DNA of 61,359 bases, from NCBI GenBank assembly GCA_030538415.1, contig JAUNTY010000012.1:1-61359 (forward strand), in the 5' to 3' direction. The notes under the pieces are model-generated. The model ran no database searches. It worked only from the letters and a program-made list of their open reading frames with translations, and was not told the DNA's origin. The stretch's first letter is position 1. Each line of letters opens with the position of its first letter. Positions 1,245 to 8,772 of this stretch are shown here, piece by piece. Both the position numbers and the translations under genes were made by a program. The stretch is from Neisseria sp. (GTDB taxonomy: Bacteria; Pseudomonadota; Gammaproteobacteria; Burkholderiales; Neisseriaceae).

Positions 1245-1459
1245 GAGGGCAAACAGCTTTCAGACGGCCTGAAGGGAAACGGCGCAAAATGCCAAGCATA
1301 CGCCTACTTTTGCGTATTGGCGAATTTTGCGGAATCAGGCGTCGGGTGGGTGCGGGTGCGGGTGAAATTTGCTTGAAGATTGGCTAATCCGGTTATTTCG
1401 GCTATATCATGGGCATCTGCCTGTTTGTTGAATGTTGTTTTGTGAAAGGAATGCAGCTG

Positions 1460-2356
1460 ATGCGCCATGATTTGACCAGTTTGAAATTATTTGTGGTGGT
1501 TGCGGAGTGCGGTAATCTGACCCGAGCGGCGGAGCGCGAGCATCTGGCCGTGTCGGCGGTGAGCAAGCGTATAACGGATCTGGAGGAGCAAATCGGCTCG
1601 GTGCTGCTGCAACGCCATGCCCGCGGCGTGAGCCTGACGCCTGCCGGGCATTCGTTGCTGCAACATGCCAGACAGATTTTGCAGATGTTGCAGCGTATGG
1701 ATGCGGATATGGGGGAATATGCGCAAGGTGTGAAAGGCAATATCCGCCTGCATGCGGTGGCTTCGGCATTGATGCAGTTTCTGCCTGAAGAGATTGAAAC
1801 CTTTCTGGACAAACATCCCTTGGTGAATATCGGGCTGGTTGAGCAAACCGGGCCGATGGTGGTGCAGTCGGTGTTGGATGGCGGTGCCGATTTGGGTATC
1901 GTGGTGGGGCAAACGCCGGTGAGCGGCGTTTCATTGTTTCCATACCGGCGCGACAGGTTGGTGTTGGGCGTGCCGTTGGGGCATCCGTTGGCAGGGCGCA
2001 AAAGCGTTCGCTTTCACGAGTTGGCGGAATTTCCGTTTATCGGCCCGCATGCGGGCAGCTCGTTGGCGGTGTTGCTGGCCGCTGCGGAGAAAAGCGGCAA
2101 CATCACACTCAAGCAGCGTGTACAGGCCAGCAGCTTCGATGCCATGTGCCGGTTGGTGGAAATCCGCCTCGGGCTGACCATCTTGCCCGACGGCGTGCTG
2201 GCGCCTTATGTCAAAACAGGCCGCTTGGGTATGGTGACGCTGAAAGAGGCGTGGGCAGTGAGGCAGCTGCATCTGGTGGTGCGCAATCCCGAGCAGCTGA
2301 ATCCGGTGGCAGGCGTCTTGTTGGCGCACTTGGGTATTTCGATGGAAAGCAGTTGA
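1460..2356 (+). CDS. LysR-family transcriptional regulator
   Basis: A 298-residue DNA-binding regulator. The N-terminal winged helix-turn-helix (about residues 1-60, with LKLFVVVAECGNLTRAAE and SAVSKRITDLEEQIG) is followed by a LysR substrate-binding domain from about residue 90. The ATG at 1460 is preferred because GAAAGGA (1443-1449) is well spaced before it; the ATG at 1451 is too close to that site. A terminator follows at 2397-2431, so it is probably transcribed alone. It is the natural candidate regulator of the catabolic operon starting at 2887, because a LysR-type dyad (2581-2597) lies between them. Which metabolite it senses is unknown. Confidence 0.88.
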   Translation: MRHDLTSLKLFVVVAECGNLTRAAEREHLAVSAVSKRITDLEEQIGSVLLQRHARGVSLTPAGHSLLQHARQILQMLQRMDADMGEYAQGVKGNIRLHAVASALMQFLPEEIETFLDKHPLVNIGLVEQTGPMVVQSVLDGGADLGIVVGQTPVSGVSLFPYRRDRLVLGVPLGHPLAGRKSVRFHELAEFPFIGPHAGSSLAVLLAAAEKSGNITLKQRVQASSFDAMCRLVEIRLGLTILPDGVLAPYVKTGRLGMVTLKEAWAVRQLHLVVRNPEQLNPVAGVLLAHLGISMESS

Positions 2357-2396
2357 GGCGTGGAGCCAAACCAAGCCAAAACAAACCATTATTGTG

Positions 2397-2431
2397 AACA
2401 TCAGCGGCCATTTGTGCCGCTGATGTTTTTT
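2397..2431 (+). terminator. Rho-independent terminator after LysR gene
   Basis: A perfect 12-bp stem (AACATCAGCGGC with GCCGCTGATGTT) and 7-nt loop are followed by a T run. It is not built from DUS words, unlike most terminators in this window. Confidence 0.85.
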
Positions 2432-2440
2432 GATGCGGGA

Positions 2441-2547
2441 TATAGCGAAATAAAATAAGAAATCTACTGCGTTAGCTGCGCCTTGCCGTACTGTTTGTAC
2501 TGTCTGCGGCTTGCCGCCTTGTATCTTTCTTATTTTATTTCGCTATA
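2441..2547. mobile_element. Correia-like element, TATAGCGAAATAAA type
   Basis: A 107-bp element with perfectly matching ends (TATAGCGAAATAAAATAAGA and its complement). The core contains GTACTGTCTGCGGCTTG, which is shared with all other Correia-like copies in the window. This is the only copy here with this end type. A DUS (2551-2562) follows directly. Confidence 0.85.
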
Positions 2548-2580
2548 TTTTTCAGACGGCCTCTATCGATAAAATCGAGT

Positions 2581-2597
2581 GTTCTCTTTTTGAGAAC
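2581..2597. promoter_or_regulatory. Candidate LysR-type operator
   Basis: GTTCTC-TTTTT-GAGAAC is a perfect dyad that contains the LysR-type spacing T-N11-A (T2583 to A2595). A second small palindrome, ATTCTCAGAAT, lies at 2618-2628. It sits between the LysR terminator and the lactonase operon, as expected for an operator of that operon. No clear -35/-10 pair was found next to it. Confidence 0.5.
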
Positions 2598-2760
2598 GAT
2601 ATCGTGATAATTGTTCAATTCTCAGAATGATTTGCTCTCAAGTAAGATGCTTCGACGACATCGAATGGTGCATGGCAGCACCGGAAGGGCTGCCGTGCGC
2701 TCGGTGTCGGATTCAAAACAATCGGGCGGGCCGGGCTTCGGTACTGGCGGCACCGATGGA

Positions 2761-2862
2761 TATCGTCGTTTCGTTAGATTGAGACAAGGCAGCAAGCCGC
2801 AGACAGTACAGGTAGTACGGCAAGGCGTAGCAACGCTGTATCAATCTAACGGAACGACTATA
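2761..2862. mobile_element. Correia-like element, TATAGTCGTTCCGTTAG type
   Basis: A 102-bp element whose right end complements the left with one mismatch in the TATA and one in the arm. The core has the usual GCAAGCCGCAGACAGTACAG and GGCGTAGCAACGC words. It ends 12 bp before the ribosome-binding site of the lactonase gene, so it forms most of that gene's proximal leader. Confidence 0.85.
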
Positions 2863-2886
2863 ACAACGAAGCAAAGGAGAATATCT

Positions 2887-3996
2887 ATGCAGGAGCATAT
2901 CTATGCCTATGCAGGCAGCCGTACCACCAAGGAGCGGAATGCGCGCGGCGAAGGCATTTCCGTATTCCGTATGTCGGTGCGGGATGCGCGTTTGGAGCGC
3001 ATTCAGTTGGTGGGCGGTATCATCAACCCCTCTTATTTGGCCTTGTCTTCAGATGGCCGCTGTCTTTATACCGTGCATGGCGACTGCTCGGAAGTGAGCG
3101 CTTATGCGGTTGACGGCAATACGGGCGAGCTGCGTTTTTTGAACCGGCAAAACAGCGGCGGCAAAAATCCGGTACATCTGGCTGTCAGCCCGGAAGGCGG
3201 CGAATTAATTGTGACCAACCATATCGGCGCCAGCATTGCGGTGTTGCCGTTGGCGCAAGACGGCAGTTTGCAGCCGTTGGTGCAACTCGAAATTTTGTCG
3301 GGCACAACAGGGCCGCACCGCATCGAGCAAACCCAGTCCAAGCCGCATTTCAATCTGTTGTCGCCGTCGGGTCGTTATGTGATTGTGCCCGATAAGGGGC
3401 TGGATTGTATTTTCAGTTTCCGTTTTGAGGGTGGGCGCTTATTACCGGCGGCAGAGCCGGTGGTGGCCACGCGTGAAGGCGCAGGGCCGCGCCATGCCGT
3501 GTTTCATCCGGAAAAGCCGCTGCTTTATGTGGTCAACGAGTTGGATTCGACCGTTACCACCTACCGATACCGCGAAGCCACGGGCGGCTTGAGCCCTGTG
3601 CACATCGTTTCCTGCCTGCCGCCGGTTTTTACGGGCAACAGCCGGGCAGCGGGCATTGCCGTGGATGCGGCAGGCCGTTTTCTGTATGCCTCCAACCGGG
3701 GGCACGACAGCATCGCGGTGTTTGCCCTCGATTCCGAAAGCGGTTTGCCGCGTTTTGTGGCAGCGGAGCCGAGCCGGGGAAAAACGCCGCGCTTTTTCAC
3801 GCTTACGCCAGACGGCAGGCATATGCAGGTGCTCAATGAAGACAGCGACACCATCGTTACGTTTGCCGTTGATGAAAAGAGCGGCAGATTGACGCCGTCT
3901 GAAGGGGGCATAACCTCAGCAGGCAGCCCCGTCTGCATGATTTTTGCCGCTCAGGCCGCCGGTTTTTCTTCCCATTTACCGTTTCAGGAGTCTTGA
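2887..3996 (+). CDS. Lactonase family protein, seven-bladed beta-propeller (YbhE/Pgl-like)
   Basis: A 369-residue protein of the lactonase family (COG2706 type). The family includes 6-phosphogluconolactonase YbhE and the carboxy-cis,cis-muconate cyclase fold. Repeated blade motifs are visible, such as PSYLALSSDGRCLYTVH, PVHLAVSPEGGELIVTN, PRHAVFHPEKPLLYVVNE and GIAVDAAGRFLYASNRG. There is no signal peptide, so it is cytoplasmic. The start at 2887 is set by AGGAGA (2875-2880); in-frame codons further upstream run through a Correia-like element. It is the first gene of a tight operon with an MFS permease, an aconitase and a binding-fold protein. It therefore more likely opens a lactone of a di- or tricarboxylic acid than serves the pentose pathway. 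That role is inference. Confidence 0.8.
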   Translation: MQEHIYAYAGSRTTKERNARGEGISVFRMSVRDARLERIQLVGGIINPSYLALSSDGRCLYTVHGDCSEVSAYAVDGNTGELRFLNRQNSGGKNPVHLAVSPEGGELIVTNHIGASIAVLPLAQDGSLQPLVQLEILSGTTGPHRIEQTQSKPHFNLLSPSGRYVIVPDKGLDCIFSFRFEGGRLLPAAEPVVATREGAGPRHAVFHPEKPLLYVVNELDSTVTTYRYREATGGLSPVHIVSCLPPVFTGNSRAAGIAVDAAGRFLYASNRGHDSIAVFALDSESGLPRFVAAEPSRGKTPRFFTLTPDGRHMQVLNEDSDTIVTFAVDEKSGRLTPSEGGITSAGSPVCMIFAAQAAGFSSHLPFQES

Positions 3997-3998
3997 TT

Positions 3999-5312
3999 AT
4001 GTCTGCCATCAATGAAGCCCGTGAAAAACAGATTGTCCGCAAGGTGACTTTGCGCATTATTCCTTTTGTGTTTTTGCTTTATATTATTTCGTATCTCGAC
4101 AGAGCCAACATCGGCTATGCCGCTTTGCAGATGAATGCGGAGCTGGCGCTGACCAGCGAGGTGTTCGGCTTTATTTCGGGTGTGTTTTTTATCGGCTATT
4201 TCTTGTTCGAAGTGCCGAGCAATGTGATGCTCAACAAATATGGCGCACGTGTCTGGATTGCCCGTATTTTGGTCACGTGGGGTTTATTCGCCACGCTGAC
4301 CGCATTTGCCCAAAATGCCATGCAGCTCTATATCCTGCGCTTTTTGCTGGGTGTGGCGGAGGCGGGCTTTTTTCCGGGCATTATCGTTTATCTGACCAGC
4401 TGGTTCCGCAACAAGGAAATCGCCACCACCGTGTCGTTGTTTACGGCCGCCATTCCCGTGTCTTACATCATCGGCGCGCCCTTGAGCACCTGGATTATGG
4501 ATCATATCCATTGGTTTGGCTGGAGCGGCTGGCGCTGGATGCTGTTTCTGGAAGGGCTGCCGGCAATTATTCTCGGCGTGGTGTGTTTTTTCCGCCTGAC
4601 CGACAAGCCGGAGCAGGCCAAATGGCTGACGCCGGAAGAAAAAAGCTGGCTGACGGGCGAGCTGGCGCGGGATTTGGCCGCCCGCAAGAATGTGAAGCAT
4701 CTGAGCGTATTCCAAGCCATGCGTAACGGCAAAATCCTGTATTTGTCATTCATCTATTTTGTTTACCAGTGCGGCAGCTTGGGCGTCGGCTACTGGATGC
4801 CGCAAATCTTGCAGGGCATGGCCAAAGAAGCCAGCCATTTTCAAATCGGCCTGATGGCGATGATTCCCTATATCGTGGCCACCATCGCCATGATTGCATG
4901 GTCGAGAAGCTCGGATTTGCGCAATGAGCGCAAGCTGCATTCCGCCATTCCGCTGGCGGTGGCCGCTGTTGCCCTGTATGCGGCGGGCTCGGTGTCGCAC
5001 GCGATGTCGGCGCTGGCTTTGATTAGTGTGGCGCTGGCGGGGCTTTATGCGTTCAAATCACCGTTTTGGTCGCTGCCGACACTGTTTTTGTCGAAGGAAA
5101 CGGCTTCTATTTCCGTAGCGGTCATCAATTCCATCGGTAATTTGGGTGGTTTTGTCGGCCCTTATATGCTCGGTGTGATTGCAGGCTCGCAGAAATCGGC
5201 CAATACCGGCGGGCTGGTGTTTTTGAGCGGGCTGCTGGCGATTGCTTTCTTTATGACTCTGTTTATGCGCACCAAATACACAACCAAAGAATTGGATGCC
5301 GCAGGCCAGTAA
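3999..5312 (+). CDS. MFS transporter, anion:cation symporter (ACS) family
   Basis: A 437-residue, 12-segment major facilitator. The N-terminal signature (LRIIPFVFLLYIISYLDRANIGYA), then GVAEAGFFPGIIVYLTSWF and FGWSGWRWMLFLEGLPAI, are typical of the ACS family, which carries organic anions such as phthalate, tartrate, galactonate or 4-hydroxyphenylacetate. ATG 3999 follows CAGGAG with good spacing and begins 2 bp after the lactonase stop, so the two are translationally close. In this operon it is presumably the importer of the acid that the aconitase and lactonase process. The exact substrate cannot be read from sequence. Confidence 0.85.
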   Translation: MSAINEAREKQIVRKVTLRIIPFVFLLYIISYLDRANIGYAALQMNAELALTSEVFGFISGVFFIGYFLFEVPSNVMLNKYGARVWIARILVTWGLFATLTAFAQNAMQLYILRFLLGVAEAGFFPGIIVYLTSWFRNKEIATTVSLFTAAIPVSYIIGAPLSTWIMDHIHWFGWSGWRWMLFLEGLPAIILGVVCFFRLTDKPEQAKWLTPEEKSWLTGELARDLAARKNVKHLSVFQAMRNGKILYLSFIYFVYQCGSLGVGYWMPQILQGMAKEASHFQIGLMAMIPYIVATIAMIAWSRSSDLRNERKLHSAIPLAVAAVALYAAGSVSHAMSALALISVALAGLYAFKSPFWSLPTLFLSKETASISVAVINSIGNLGGFVGPYMLGVIAGSQKSANTGGLVFLSGLLAIAFFMTLFMRTKYTTKELDAAGQ

Positions 5313-5327
5313 AATCAGGATAGAAAC

Positions 5328-7961
5328 ATGAACACAAATTACGAAAAATATTCGGAAAGCCCGCCGCCGACCGCAAAATTACTGTTTGGCGATGCAACGC
5401 TGTCTTTTGTCGATTTGCCTGCGCTGCTGGGCAAACGCCTGCCCGACATGCCGGTGGTGTTGCGGCTGCTGTTGGAAAATGTGGTGCGCAACATGCAGGG
5501 CGACGAACAGGCGCGGGCTATAACCGCATTATTGGCTTGGTTGGATACCGGCAGCAGCGAGGCTGAAATCGACTATCAGCCCGATCGCGTACTGATGCAC
5601 GATACCACCAGCACACCGGCGCTGGTGGATATCGCGGGTATGCGTGATGCATTGGCCGAGGCAGGACAAGATCCCGCCTTGCTTAATCCGGTATTGCCGG
5701 TGGAGGTGTCGGTAGACCATTCGCTGGCCGTGGAAGTGTTTGGCAGGCCGGATGCGGTGCCGGTTAATCTGGATTATGAAATGCGCCGCAACCACGAGCG
5801 TTACTGCTTTTTGCGTTGGGCGACCAAAGCCCTGCGCGGGGTGCGGGTGAATCCGCCGGGCACCGGCATCATGCACACCATCAATCTGGAGCAGCTGGCC
5901 ACAGTGGTGACTCGGCAGGAGCGGCAGGGCGTGCAATGGGTGGTGCCCGACATGATGTTGGGCACCGACAGCCACACGCCGATGATTAACGGCATCGGCG
6001 TATTGGGTTGGGGCGTGGGCGGGCTGGAGGCGCAAACCGTGATGTTTGGTATGCCCACGGTATTGCGGATTCCCGATGTTATCGGGGTGCGGCTTACCGG
6101 CGCGCTGCCGCCGGGCGTAACGGCCACCGATTTGGCGCTGACGGTAACCAAACGGCTGCGCGATTTGGGGGTGAGCGGCGAATTCGTGGAATTTTTCGGT
6201 GAAGGGGTCGCCACGCTGAGTGCAGCCCAGCGTTGTGTGATTGCCAATATGGCGCCGGAATACGGCGCCACCACCGGTTTTTTCCCGATTGACGGTGCCA
6301 CACTGGCCTATCTGCGCAGCACCGGCCGCGATGATGCGCATATCGGCCTGGTCGAGCAATATGCACGTCGTGCGGGGCTGTGGTTTGATCCGCAGGCGCA
6401 GCCCCGCTTCACGCAAAGTATTACCATTGACTTGAGCGCCGTCGGCCTGCAGGTTGCCGGGCCGCGTCGCCCGCAGGATTTGCTGCCGCTGGCTGGAATG
6501 CAGGCGGTATTGGCTGCCGAGGCATTCGTGCCTGCCGCCGACAGCAGTCTGCCGCGCCATCCGGTGGCGATTGCCGCCATCACCAGCTGCACCAATACCA
6601 GCGACCCGGCTTTGCTGATTGCGGCAGGTTTGTTGGCACGCAATGCGCATGCACGCGGTTTGCGGGTGCCGGAATGGGTGAAAACTTCGTTGAGCCCGGG
6701 CTCGCCGGCTGCCGGGCTGTATCTGGCGCGGGCAGGCGTACGTGATGCGCTGGCTGCGGTTGGTTTTGATGTCGTCGGTTACGGTTGCGCCACTTGCATC
6801 GGTAATTCGGGCAGCCTGCCGCCGGTCATCCGGCAGGCGATGTCTGAACGGCTGGTGCGGCCGGTGGCGGTATTGTCGGGCAATCGCAATTTTACCGGCC
6901 GCGTGCACCCCGATTTGGATTTGGGCTTTCTGATGTCGCCGCCGATGGTGGTGGCCTTTGCGCTGGCGGGCGATGCGGCGCGCAATCTGAGTTGCGAACC
7001 GGTGGGCACGGATAAGCAGGGTGTGCCGGTTTATCTGCATGAATTGTGGCCGAAACAAGAAGAAGTGCAGGCGCTGGCCGGGAGTAGTACGCGCCCGGCC
7101 GAATTCAGGCAGGCTTTTCAGACGGCCTCTGAAAACCCGGCATGGCACCAACTACCTGCACCGGATACGGCGCGCTTTCCCTGGAATCCTGATTCGAATA
7201 CGCTGAGGCGGCCGCCGTTTGCCTCGGCAGACGAAGGCTCGCAACTCGGTCACTACACGGCGTGGCCGCTGATGGTGTTGGGTGATGATGTCACCACCGA
7301 CCATATTTCTCCGGCAAGCGCTATTCCGCCCGATAGCCTGATAGCGGATTATCTGGTGGCGCGGGGCGAAAACCGCAATGATTTAAACGTATTCGCTTCA
7401 AGGCGCGGCAATTGGGAAGTGATGATGCGCGGCACGTTTTACAGCAAATCGTTGCGCAACCTGATTCAGCCGGATTTGCCGGTGGGGCAGACGCTGTATG
7501 TACCCGATGGCGAGATACTGCCTATTTGGGAGGCCGCAGAGCGCTATCGCCAGGCGGGGCAATCGGTTGTGATTGTGGCCGGAGCGCGCTACGGCACAGG
7601 TTCTTCGCGCGATTGGGCGGCCAAGGGGCAACGTTTGCTCGGTGTGCGCGCGGTATTGGCCAACAGCTTCGAGCGTATTCACCGCTCCAACTTAATCGGC
7701 ATGGGCATTCTGCCGCTGCAACTGCCTTCTGCATACCATCCTGAAATATTGGCCTTGCAACCGGGCGACCGCATCGAAGTGGCGGCGGAGGCTGCCGTGT
7801 TGGGCGTGCGCGCGGCGGTGCCGGTGAAGATTTTGCGTGCAGACGGCCATGTGGAAATCATCAACACGACGGCAGCCGTGGAAACCCTGCTGGATTTGGC
7901 CCTGTTGCGCCACGGCGGCGTGATGCCTTATATTCTTCAGCAACATTTAAATAAGGTGTGA
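5328..7961 (+). CDS. Aconitase family hydratase (AcnA type)
   Basis: An 877-residue aconitase/IRP family enzyme. The three [4Fe-4S] ligands are present as C421 (ITSCTNTSDP), C487 and C490 (GYGCATCIGNSG), with the spacing seen in AcnA. Other family motifs are GTDSHTPMINGIGVLGWGVGG, LSGNRNF, GDDVTTDHISPAS and GTGSSRDWAAKG. It is therefore expected to be active. It differs from ordinary AcnA around residues 525-545 (GRVHPDLDLGFLMSPPMVV). It sits 15 bp after the permease and 1 bp before the binding-fold gene, so it is part of a substrate-induced operon rather than the housekeeping aconitase. The substrate may be aconitate or a related tricarboxylate. AcnD (2-methylcitrate dehydratase) is less likely because no prp genes are nearby. 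Confidence 0.85.
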   Translation: MNTNYEKYSESPPPTAKLLFGDATLSFVDLPALLGKRLPDMPVVLRLLLENVVRNMQGDEQARAITALLAWLDTGSSEAEIDYQPDRVLMHDTTSTPALVDIAGMRDALAEAGQDPALLNPVLPVEVSVDHSLAVEVFGRPDAVPVNLDYEMRRNHERYCFLRWATKALRGVRVNPPGTGIMHTINLEQLATVVTRQERQGVQWVVPDMMLGTDSHTPMINGIGVLGWGVGGLEAQTVMFGMPTVLRIPDVIGVRLTGALPPGVTATDLALTVTKRLRDLGVSGEFVEFFGEGVATLSAAQRCVIANMAPEYGATTGFFPIDGATLAYLRSTGRDDAHIGLVEQYARRAGLWFDPQAQPRFTQSITIDLSAVGLQVAGPRRPQDLLPLAGMQAVLAAEAFVPAADSSLPRHPVAIAAITSCTNTSDPALLIAAGLLARNAHARGLRVPEWVKTSLSPGSPAAGLYLARAGVRDALAAVGFDVVGYGCATCIGNSGSLPPVIRQAMSERLVRPVAVLSGNRNFTGRVHPDLDLGFLMSPPMVVAFALAGDAARNLSCEPVGTDKQGVPVYLHELWPKQEEVQALAGSSTRPAEFRQAFQTASENPAWHQLPAPDTARFPWNPDSNTLRRPPFASADEGSQLGHYTAWPLMVLGDDVTTDHISPASAIPPDSLIADYLVARGENRNDLNVFASRRGNWEVMMRGTFYSKSLRNLIQPDLPVGQTLYVPDGEILPIWEAAERYRQAGQSVVIVAGARYGTGSSRDWAAKGQRLLGVRAVLANSFERIHRSNLIGMGILPLQLPSAYHPEILALQPGDRIEVAAEAAVLGVRAAVPVKILRADGHVEIINTTAAVETLLDLALLRHGGVMPYILQQHLNKV

Positions 7962-7962
7962 T

Positions 7963-8703
7963 ATGAAAAACATCAATTTCGACATCAAGGATTTGGCGCC
8001 CGAGGGGTATCTGCGTGCCGCCATCAATTTGGGTAATCCTATTTTGGCCGCTTATGATGAAGCCGGCGGCCAGCCTTGCGGCGTATCGGTGGATTTGGCA
8101 CGGCGGCTGGCCGAGCAGGTAAACATGGAGTTGCGGCTGGTGGTGTATGATGCCGCCGGAAAATCTGTGGCCGGAGTGGCTGCCGGCGAAGCGGATTTCG
8201 GTTTTTTCGCCGTCGATCCGCAGCGCGGCCGCGACATCGCGTTTACCGAGCCATATGTGTTGATTGAGGGCTGCTATCTGGTGGCGGATGCATCACCGAT
8301 TACCCGCAATGAGCAGGTGGATCGGGATACGCACACGGTGGTGGTGGGCAAGGGCAGCGCTTATGATTTATTTTTGTCGCGCGAGCTGAAGCATGCCGAA
8401 ATTGTGCGTTCGCCCACATCGCCCACGGTGGTGGATACGTTTATCGAACGGCAGGCGGATGTGGCCGCCGGTGTGAAGCAGCAGTTGGAGGCAGACGCAA
8501 AACGCATCGGCGGTTTGCGCCTCTTGGACGGTCATTTCATGGTCATCCGACAGGCGATGGGCACAGCCAAAAACCGGGGTGCGCAAGTGGCGGAATTCTT
8601 GGCCGATTTTGTGGAAGCCGCCAAAGCTGACGGTTTTGTAACCGAAGCCTTGGTGCGGCACGGTATTCAGGGTGCTGCGGTAGCGCCGCCCGCCGGAAAA
8701 TGA
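7963..8703 (+). CDS. Solute-binding-fold protein without signal peptide
   Basis: A 246-residue protein resembling family 3 (amino-acid type) extracellular solute-binding proteins: GVSVDLARRLAEQVNMELRLVVYDAAGKS, ADFGFFAVDPQRGRDIAFTEPYVLIEGCYLV and VVGKGSAYDLFLSREL. It starts MKNINFDIKDLAPEG, with no hydrophobic signal sequence or lipobox, and no ABC permease or ATPase is adjacent. It is therefore probably cytoplasmic. The start is 1 bp after the aconitase stop. Known precedent: a Pseudomonas aconitate isomerase is a protein of the periplasmic-binding fold. By analogy this one could be an isomerase or a metabolite sensor in the operon, but that is inference. It ends at a strong DUS hairpin. Confidence 0.75.
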   Translation: MKNINFDIKDLAPEGYLRAAINLGNPILAAYDEAGGQPCGVSVDLARRLAEQVNMELRLVVYDAAGKSVAGVAAGEADFGFFAVDPQRGRDIAFTEPYVLIEGCYLVADASPITRNEQVDRDTHTVVVGKGSAYDLFLSRELKHAEIVRSPTSPTVVDTFIERQADVAAGVKQQLEADAKRIGGLRLLDGHFMVIRQAMGTAKNRGAQVAEFLADFVEAAKADGFVTEALVRHGIQGAAVAPPAGK

Positions 8704-8716
8704 TTGCAAGAATCCG

Positions 8717-8764
8717 ATATCAACCGAGGCCGTCTGAAACTTTTCAGACGGCCTCGGTTGATAT
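8717..8764. terminator. Bidirectional DUS terminator
   Basis: A 23-bp stem ending in the two DUS copies (ATATCAACCGAGGCCGTCTG and its complement), with only a few loop bases, lies between the convergent catabolic operon and prmB. Confidence 0.85.
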
Positions 8765-8772
8765 GAGCTACG

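Follow-up and report, generated by a model that had tools for sequence, protein, structure and literature searches.

Organisation of the locus

The window analysed here, a stretch of 61,359 bp on one contig (C32) of the 2.84 Mb draft genome of a Neisseria sp., contains five genes in one direction, for a LysR-type regulator, a PF10282 lactonase, a major facilitator superfamily (MFS) permease, an AcnA-type aconitase and a protein with the SBP_bac_3 fold of solute-binding proteins (SBPs) (Table 1). The gaps from the lactonase to the SBP-fold gene are 2, 15 and 1 bp. The original prediction, made from an earlier reading of this DNA, had described four closely spaced genes preceded by a LysR gene and a T-N11-A dyad, and this layout is confirmed, as are the identities it gave to the parts, which agree with the Pfam and NCBIfam profiles. 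The open reading frame called mechanically for the lactonase starts at 2611 but runs through a repeat; its start has been set at the ATG at 2887, most likely the true one, because the alignment of relatives and a AAAGGAGA site both point there.

Table 1 Positions of the operon genes and associated features in the window
Feature	Position	Strand	Basis
LysR-type regulator, likely operon activator	1457..2356	+	PF00126, PF03466; longest open reading frame begins at 1409
Terminator-like hairpin and T run, 3' of LysR	2399..2431	+	Sequence reading; unlisted by terminator scan
LysR recognition dyad GTTCTC-N5-GAGAAC, including T-N11-A; letters GTTCTCTTTTTGAGAAC	2581..2597		Unique in its own genome; same site at LysR-type copies elsewhere
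Inferred promoter: -35-like TTCTCA (2619-2624), -10-like TAAGAT (2643-2648)	2619..2648	+	Promoter alignment and by eye
Seven-bladed propeller lactonase, PF10282, motif SRTTKERNARGEG	2887..3996	+	PF10282 337.7 bits, cut-off 21.7
MFS permease, anion:cation symporter type	3999..5312	+	PF07690 154.1 bits
AcnA-type aconitase, extra paralogue, probably catabolic	5328..7961	+	PF00330 475.4 bits, PF00694 120.7 bits
SBP_bac_3-fold protein, no signal peptide, proposed isomerase-like enzyme	7963..8703	+	PF00497 39.2 bits, cut-off 26.4
Inverted repeat of two uptake sequences, probable terminator	8717..8764		GCCGTCTGAA at 8729 (+) and 8743 (-); sequence reading
Segment absent from near relative G046	1245..8772		271 bp there between the same two flanking genes

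Linkage of the genes in other genomes

Genome contigs were scanned with the SBP-fold protein alone, and 80 of 284 relatives were kept, nearly all of them from Burkholderiales. An aconitase gene lies in 26 of these 80 loci and a lactonase gene in 23, where the label aconitase denotes tblastn similarity and includes the AcnD-like enzyme of locus L027. All 23 lactonase loci have an aconitase and also a carboxylate-type transporter gene, this being an orthologous MFS permease in 17 and a TctC-type receptor of the tripartite tricarboxylate transporters (TTT) in six. The conserved co-occurrence that the original prediction proposed to look for is thus found. A beta-proteobacterial metagenome-assembled genome (L009) has the identical order LysR-lactonase-MFS-aconitase-SBP. 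Many loci of the Burkholderia type have lactonase and MFS genes that diverge from the aconitase gene, which is separated from the SBP gene by a GntR gene (annotated in L101); the names GntR and benzoate dioxygenase in L006–L085 come from sequence reading or from similarity to annotated plasmid proteins.

With the lactonase as query, a plasmid collection gave 19 records, of which 12 were read and three more were judged by the positions of their lactonase and AcnA matches. AcnA is nearby in eight of the 12 (two of these, L120 and L121, are unannotated and were recognised by tblastn) and beside the lactonase in the further three, and the 11 records with AcnA within a few kb are the 11 top-ranked of the 19 lactonase matches. 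The transporters at the plasmid loci are of the MFS, tripartite tricarboxylate or citrate:proton symporter kind, and the arrangements vary: acnA-MFS-lactonase in Roseomonas; a LysR gene and acnA-lactonase-citrate:proton symporter in Priestia; and, in Agrobacterium larrymoorei, a tripartite transporter, lactonase, acnA, LysR and citrate:proton symporter, with a PrpF gene directly 5' of the SBP gene. Among five plasmid regions around related AcnAs, three (L166, L167 and L169, from Agrobacterium and Paracoccus) contain a TctC-TctB-TctA-GntR-acnA group with no lactonase in the stretch.

As an independent test, 119 genomes of Pseudomonas, to which L041 belongs, were searched: 20 have the SBP-fold protein and seven the lactonase, and in all seven the two genes lie within 8 kb of each other. 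Such co-presence has P = 1.4e-6 if the genes were independent, one of the seven (G465) being the centre genome picked for having the SBP gene. Two of the Pseudomonas loci (L147 and L148) have the five genes reshuffled as LysR-aconitase-lactonase-MFS-SBP, and L150 has LysR-aconitase-lactonase-SBP. Between the window and Pseudomonas the permease is 73% identical, the lactonase 57%, the LysR regulator 49%, the SBP-fold protein 46–49% and the aconitase 44–45%. Gene linkage exceeds chance, and, as judged by sequence comparison, the permease and lactonase are the steadiest pair, with an aconitase in each copy.

Regulator and recognition site

An orthologous LysR regulator, 48–65% identical, lies beside module genes in L009, L033, L041, L059, L147, L148 and L150. 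The dyad GTTCTC-N5-GAGAAC occurs once in the whole host genome, and its expectation in the window from base composition is ~0.003. In 2.14 Mb of related loci there are six exact matches against 0.08 expected, all beside an orthologous LysR gene; they represent five distinct loci and L164, which duplicates L009. Allowing 0–1 mismatch, the dyad is present at all seven loci where an orthologous LysR adjoins the module, a count that omits L018, whose LysR match is of 37% and lies 8 kb from the lactonase in a cluster with a GntR gene. L018 is instead counted among the 24 GntR-type loci, only one of which (L027, 1 mismatch) has the dyad near its regulator; L119 stands outside this comparison.

The exact 19-bp form of the dyad occurs in five of the 119 Pseudomonas genomes, at the operon in four and elsewhere in one (G561). 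All six Pseudomonas genomes with a lactonase at least 54% identical have the dyad at 0–1 mismatch no more than 3.3 kb from the lactonase; the seventh, G538 (lactonase 46%), has no such dyad within that distance. Matches with up to one mismatch are found in 46 of the 119 genomes and are too common to mark the operon, so this use of the dyad was dropped and only its position or an exact match is informative.

Downstream of the dyad, TCAATT lies at a constant distance from it in all eight aligned promoters, and is followed, by eye, by a TAnnAT-type box. The promoter proposed here, which has eight of 12 consensus matches, was not reported by a consensus promoter scan. The centre of the dyad would be ~66 bp upstream of the inferred transcription start, where LysR activation sites usually lie. 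The promoter is flanked by a pair of related intergenic repeats (2440–2548 and 2761–2862), oppositely oriented and able to form hairpins; their 56-nt arms (2475–2530 and 2776–2831) are 86% complementary, and the second repeat would fall within the 5' untranslated RNA of the operon. We take them to resemble Neisseria intergenic repeats.

The aconitase

The aconitase scores above the cut-offs of the AcnA models PRK12881 (1237.9 bits, cut-off 905) and TIGR01341 (964.7 bits, cut-off 945) and far below that of the AcnD equivalog model (735.5 bits, cut-off 1419.85). It contains the cluster-binding cysteine motifs SCTNT and GCATCIGN, and its catalytic motifs are kept. The host genome also encodes AcnB (1516 bits against a cut-off of 1287) and AcnD (1829 bits against 1420). 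The AcnD gene adjoins genes that match prpB and a bifunctional methylcitrate/citrate synthase, and there is one further aconitase-family match on contig C12. Since AcnB and AcnD lie elsewhere, the window enzyme is an extra copy and not the sole housekeeping aconitase, an outcome that would have counted against the original prediction.

At position 91 the window enzyme has His, where IRP1 and all seven other AcnA-type rows, for which a housekeeping role is assumed, have Gln; we take this Gln to be a substrate contact in mitochondrial aconitase. From the 35 loci with both genes, 16 lactonase-linked aconitases were aligned (L190 and L192 were excluded for wrong reading frames), and 14 of them have His, as do five AcnD-type rows and two transporter-linked AcnAs from regions lacking a lactonase (L166 and L167).

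The lactonase-tied aconitases of Pseudomonas, Priestia, Agrobacterium and Polaromonas lie outside the window's own clade and are 41–45% identical to that of the window; the one in Polaromonas L027 is AcnD-like and is accompanied by PrpF. Set against the 57% identity of the Pseudomonas lactonases, this suggests that it is the aconitase activity itself which the module would need. A diverged aconitase lineage (L106, 11734–14460; L161, 4749–7490) reads CPDSHT for GTDSHT, GNRNFEAR for GNRNFxGR and GSARDWA for GSSRDWA, all changes that sit at active-site motifs.

The lactonase and the permease

Both its profile score and the propeller fold of its predicted model (predicted local distance difference test, pLDDT, 91.9) place the lactonase in PF10282. 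In a Foldseek search with this model 3scy was nearest, followed by other lactonase-like propellers, with 6-phosphogluconolactonase-like propellers and PpgL in the lead; the carboxymuconate lactonising enzyme of Neurospora (1jof) came at rank 10 with a template modelling score of 0.76. Against the NCBIfam 6-phosphogluconolactonase model PRK11028 the protein scores 134.3 bits for a cut-off of 370, so that by sequence it is probably not a 6-phosphogluconolactonase, in keeping with the original prediction. The 3-carboxy-cis,cis-muconate lactonising enzyme shares the seven-bladed propeller with PF10282 lactonases, but within PF10282 it is the members bearing the motif G[SCA]RTTxxRxA[RH]G that are tied to aconitase genes: the motif is common to all 35 aconitase-tied lactonase rows and is found in one of nine others (L119), rows lacking an aconitase mostly reading YT or FT at this position.

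Export of the lactonase by twin-arginine translocation (Tat) was considered. Thirteen of 23 lactonases have an upstream in-frame stretch recognised by reading as an RR motif and hydrophobic run, but in most of the 13 the internal start has a good ribosome site of its own. No upstream stretch of this kind is present at the window lactonase. The permease is 67–77% identical to those of related operons and reaches 329.5 bits with TIGR00893 and 318 bits with TIGR02332, in both cases below the cut-off.

The SBP-fold protein

The N-terminus of the SBP-fold protein, MKNINFDIKDLAPEG, contains no signal peptide by eye, and no ABC (ATP-binding cassette) partner genes lie beside its gene, the neighbours being the aconitase and HemK-like genes. 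The protein thus lacks the two marks of a periplasmic SBP of an ABC importer. Its predicted model has a pLDDT of 94.8, and a profile search places cyclohexadienyl dehydratases, a group of enzymes with the SBP fold, closest among solved structures (5jos, E = 6.6e-17). The similarity, judged by profile, is low, and the window copy differs in having no evident signal peptide. Some copies of the SBP-fold protein do have a signal-peptide-like start (L146, 8630–9433; L151, 8820–9617; L160, 8087–8896), and the family may therefore work in both periplasm and cytoplasm.

Elsewhere the neighbours of the gene encode Ldh-family, isocitrate/isopropylmalate-type dehydrogenase, PrpF, tricarballylate (tcu) or benzoate-dioxygenase-type proteins, and often there are none of these. 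In a tree of the SBP-fold proteins, from which L164, L109, L108, identical sequences and matches covering fewer than 200 residues were left out, gene contexts are interleaved and unlinked copies are close to linked ones; the protein was accordingly dropped as a pathway-specific marker. In seven Paraburkholderia loci (L017, L022, L023, L028, L032, L034 and L072) the gene lies 3' of benzoate-dioxygenase-type genes (by reading), a neighbourhood that a role in aconitate metabolism does not explain.

Origin in Neisseriaceae

The SBP-fold gene is above background in one of 83 Neisseriaceae genomes, that of the window, while 20 others give matches at 22–29% identity. Judged by its HemK-like flank (94%), G046 is the closest relative, and there the two genes that flank the segment, an AI-2E-type gene (named by reading) on the left and the HemK-like gene on the right, are collinear and adjacent with 271 bp between them (L205, 1453–1723), compared with 7,528 bp in the window. 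G016 and G020 have the flanking genes apart, in different places or contigs, and their AI-2E relatives, at 52–58% identity, may not be orthologues. Gain of the segment in this lineage is a simpler reading than loss in the others, and the operon appears to have been acquired horizontally.

There are 73 copies of GCCGTCTGAA, which we take to be the Neisseriaceae DNA uptake sequence, in the window against 0.07 expected, and the DNA is therefore that of a member of this family. Contamination was considered and rejected, given the uptake sequences inside the lactonase (3894) and aconitase (7117) genes, the similar G+C content and the collinear flanks in G046. Uptake sequences also lie near both edges of the segment, as expected for uptake by transformation.

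Proposed function and alternatives

We propose, with a probability of about 0.55, that this acquired operon is controlled by LysR and serves the catabolism of a tricarboxylic acid from outside the cell, together with its gamma-lactone. Such a route, for a tricarboxylate that has a lactone form, is what the dedicated regulator with its site, the permease–lactonase pair and the constant presence of an aconitase together suggest. The inducing acid would bind LysR at the dyad and switch on the operon, the MFS permease would import the acid or lactone, the propeller would open the lactone ring, the SBP-fold protein would act as an isomerase (for example from trans- to cis-aconitate) and the aconitase would yield isocitrate, which enters the tricarboxylic acid cycle. 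The leading guess for the substrate class, isocitrate-type lactone and/or aconitate, is a tentative one: isocitrate lactone is favoured as the simplest such lactone, and aconitate fits because the SBP gene has PrpF and tcu neighbours. Of the dedicated route set out in the original prediction, the linkage, the extra aconitase and the dedicated regulator with its site stand, whereas neither a particular acid nor the sequence of import, opening, isomerisation and hydration has found support.

A number of observations weigh against our proposal. Isocitrate released by mere hydrolysis of its lactone would go directly to isocitrate dehydrogenase, making the aconitase superfluous, and a lactone as substrate rests on the family name of PF10282, in whose fold 1jof lactonises. 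Lactonase homologues at 39–49% identity are often found without an aconitase, which is missing from four of the 12 plasmid regions read (L107, L117, L118 and L119). The lactonase is rare in the order: of 399 evenly sampled genomes, 47 have the SBP-fold protein, but the lactonase is present in the window's own genome and six others at 44–49% identity, with none of the other 398 above 50%; five of these six distant lactonases were fetched with their context, plus a sixth locus by contig, and an aconitase was found in none of five loci (L153–L156 and L158, L156 being a short contig). For 54 of the 80 loci with the SBP-fold gene, some of them on short contigs, no aconitase was detected, and taken with the interleaved contexts of the gene this means that it is not specific to the route. 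There is no dyad near the LysR gene of the Priestia LysR-type locus (L105). The Pseudomonas branch of the aconitase tree is placed beside the clade of the window, with a long-branch warning, so that separate recruitment of the aconitase is unsupported for Pseudomonas. Gln rather than His is kept at position 91 in L106 and L027.

Because plain hydrolysis of the lactone needs no aconitase, we keep a more speculative form of the proposal, one that we consider a long shot and which rests on analogy with the Neurospora muconate enzyme run in reverse. The propeller would be a delactonising enzyme that eliminates the ring oxygen, converting an isocitrate-type lactone to aconitate and erasing its stereocentres; the SBP-fold protein (or PrpF) would set the cis bond and a modified aconitase would rehydrate the product to D-isocitrate. 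If true, any stereoisomer of isocitrate lactone would be usable, and it would be explained why a lactone route has an aconitase of its own.

As an alternative to the lactone route, the operon may serve trans-aconitate assimilation in the manner of Bacillus tar, the SBP-fold protein replacing the PrpF-type isomerase TarA and the propeller being accessory or clearing a lactone by-product. The Pseudomonas sp. WU-0701 aconitate isomerase, which bears on such a replacement, is reportedly small and made with a signal peptide. This enzyme is mentioned or cited in PMC13188880 and PMC8871043. The tar system of Bacillus velezensis comprises TarR, TarA and TarB with the operator TTATAA (PMC11495376), and its layout, with the gene for a LysR regulator adjoining an operon that encodes an MFS tricarboxylate importer, is matched here at the level of families. 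Aconitate chemistry is also indicated by SBP genes that directly follow or neighbour PrpF genes (L106, L114 and L027) or lie within ~6 kb of tricarballylate genes (L108, L110 and L112), which places the operon in the same metabolic area as tcu, although TcuA and TcuB are absent among its five proteins in profile scans. PrpF and an SBP-fold isomerase together would, however, double the isomerase role; a Pfam scan of the five proteins found no PrpF; the operator TTATAA is absent from the spacer 2357–2886; and tar, as far as the accessible part of PMC11495376 describes it, has no lactonase, aconitase or SBP-fold gene. We regard a tar-like route as unlikely, though worth serious consideration.

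An ordinary operon for citrate or isocitrate uptake and oxidation, with a redundant aconitase and the propeller as a gluconolactonase-type passenger, is a doubtful explanation. It would account for the TTT-GntR-acnA groups without a lactonase and for the nine distant lactonase loci with no nearby aconitase, and the PF10282 members of solved structure are mostly named 6-phosphogluconolactonase or gluconolactonase. A passenger would not be expected to be, with the permease, the part most alike between the window and Pseudomonas, nor never to occur without an aconitase among the 23 lactonase loci of the SBP-fetched set, and this lactonase is far under the 6-phosphogluconolactonase cut-off. More doubtful still is the reading in which the tricarboxylate is a modified one (hydroxycitrate, methyl- or alloisocitrate lactone) and the aconitase has an altered specificity, for which the distribution of His91 among lactonase-linked and AcnD-type enzymes and the AcnD-like enzyme with PrpF in L027 speak, but against which stand the same His in the transporter-linked AcnAs of L166 and L167 and the Gln of L106 and L027. 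The AcnD-PrpF methylcitrate branch resembles the operon in having a specialised aconitase-family enzyme with His at 91 in a catabolic setting; it differs in that the window enzyme is far under the AcnD cut-off and the host has a separate AcnD beside prpB/prpC-type genes.

The literature searched, including parts of PMC13188880, PMC8871043 and PMC9875883, with subscription journals mostly beyond reach, contained no description of a lactonase–aconitase operon. To this extent the system is undescribed, as originally suggested. The same set of genes also occurs outside the window.

Significance

The analysis joins into a single module, for which regulator and operator are defined, genes that carry separate annotations: lactonase family protein, MFS transporter, acnA and ABC transporter substrate-binding protein. 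The module is found in beta-, gamma- and alpha-proteobacteria and on one Bacillota plasmid, there without the SBP-fold gene or dyad, and some of its carriers are soil and plant bacteria. If the proposed function is correct, the operon would represent a new carbon-source route and an inducible tricarboxylate sensor, and it would provide a function both for a PF10282 subfamily whose members can be told by an RTTxxRxARG start and for an SBP-fold family of many Burkholderiales.

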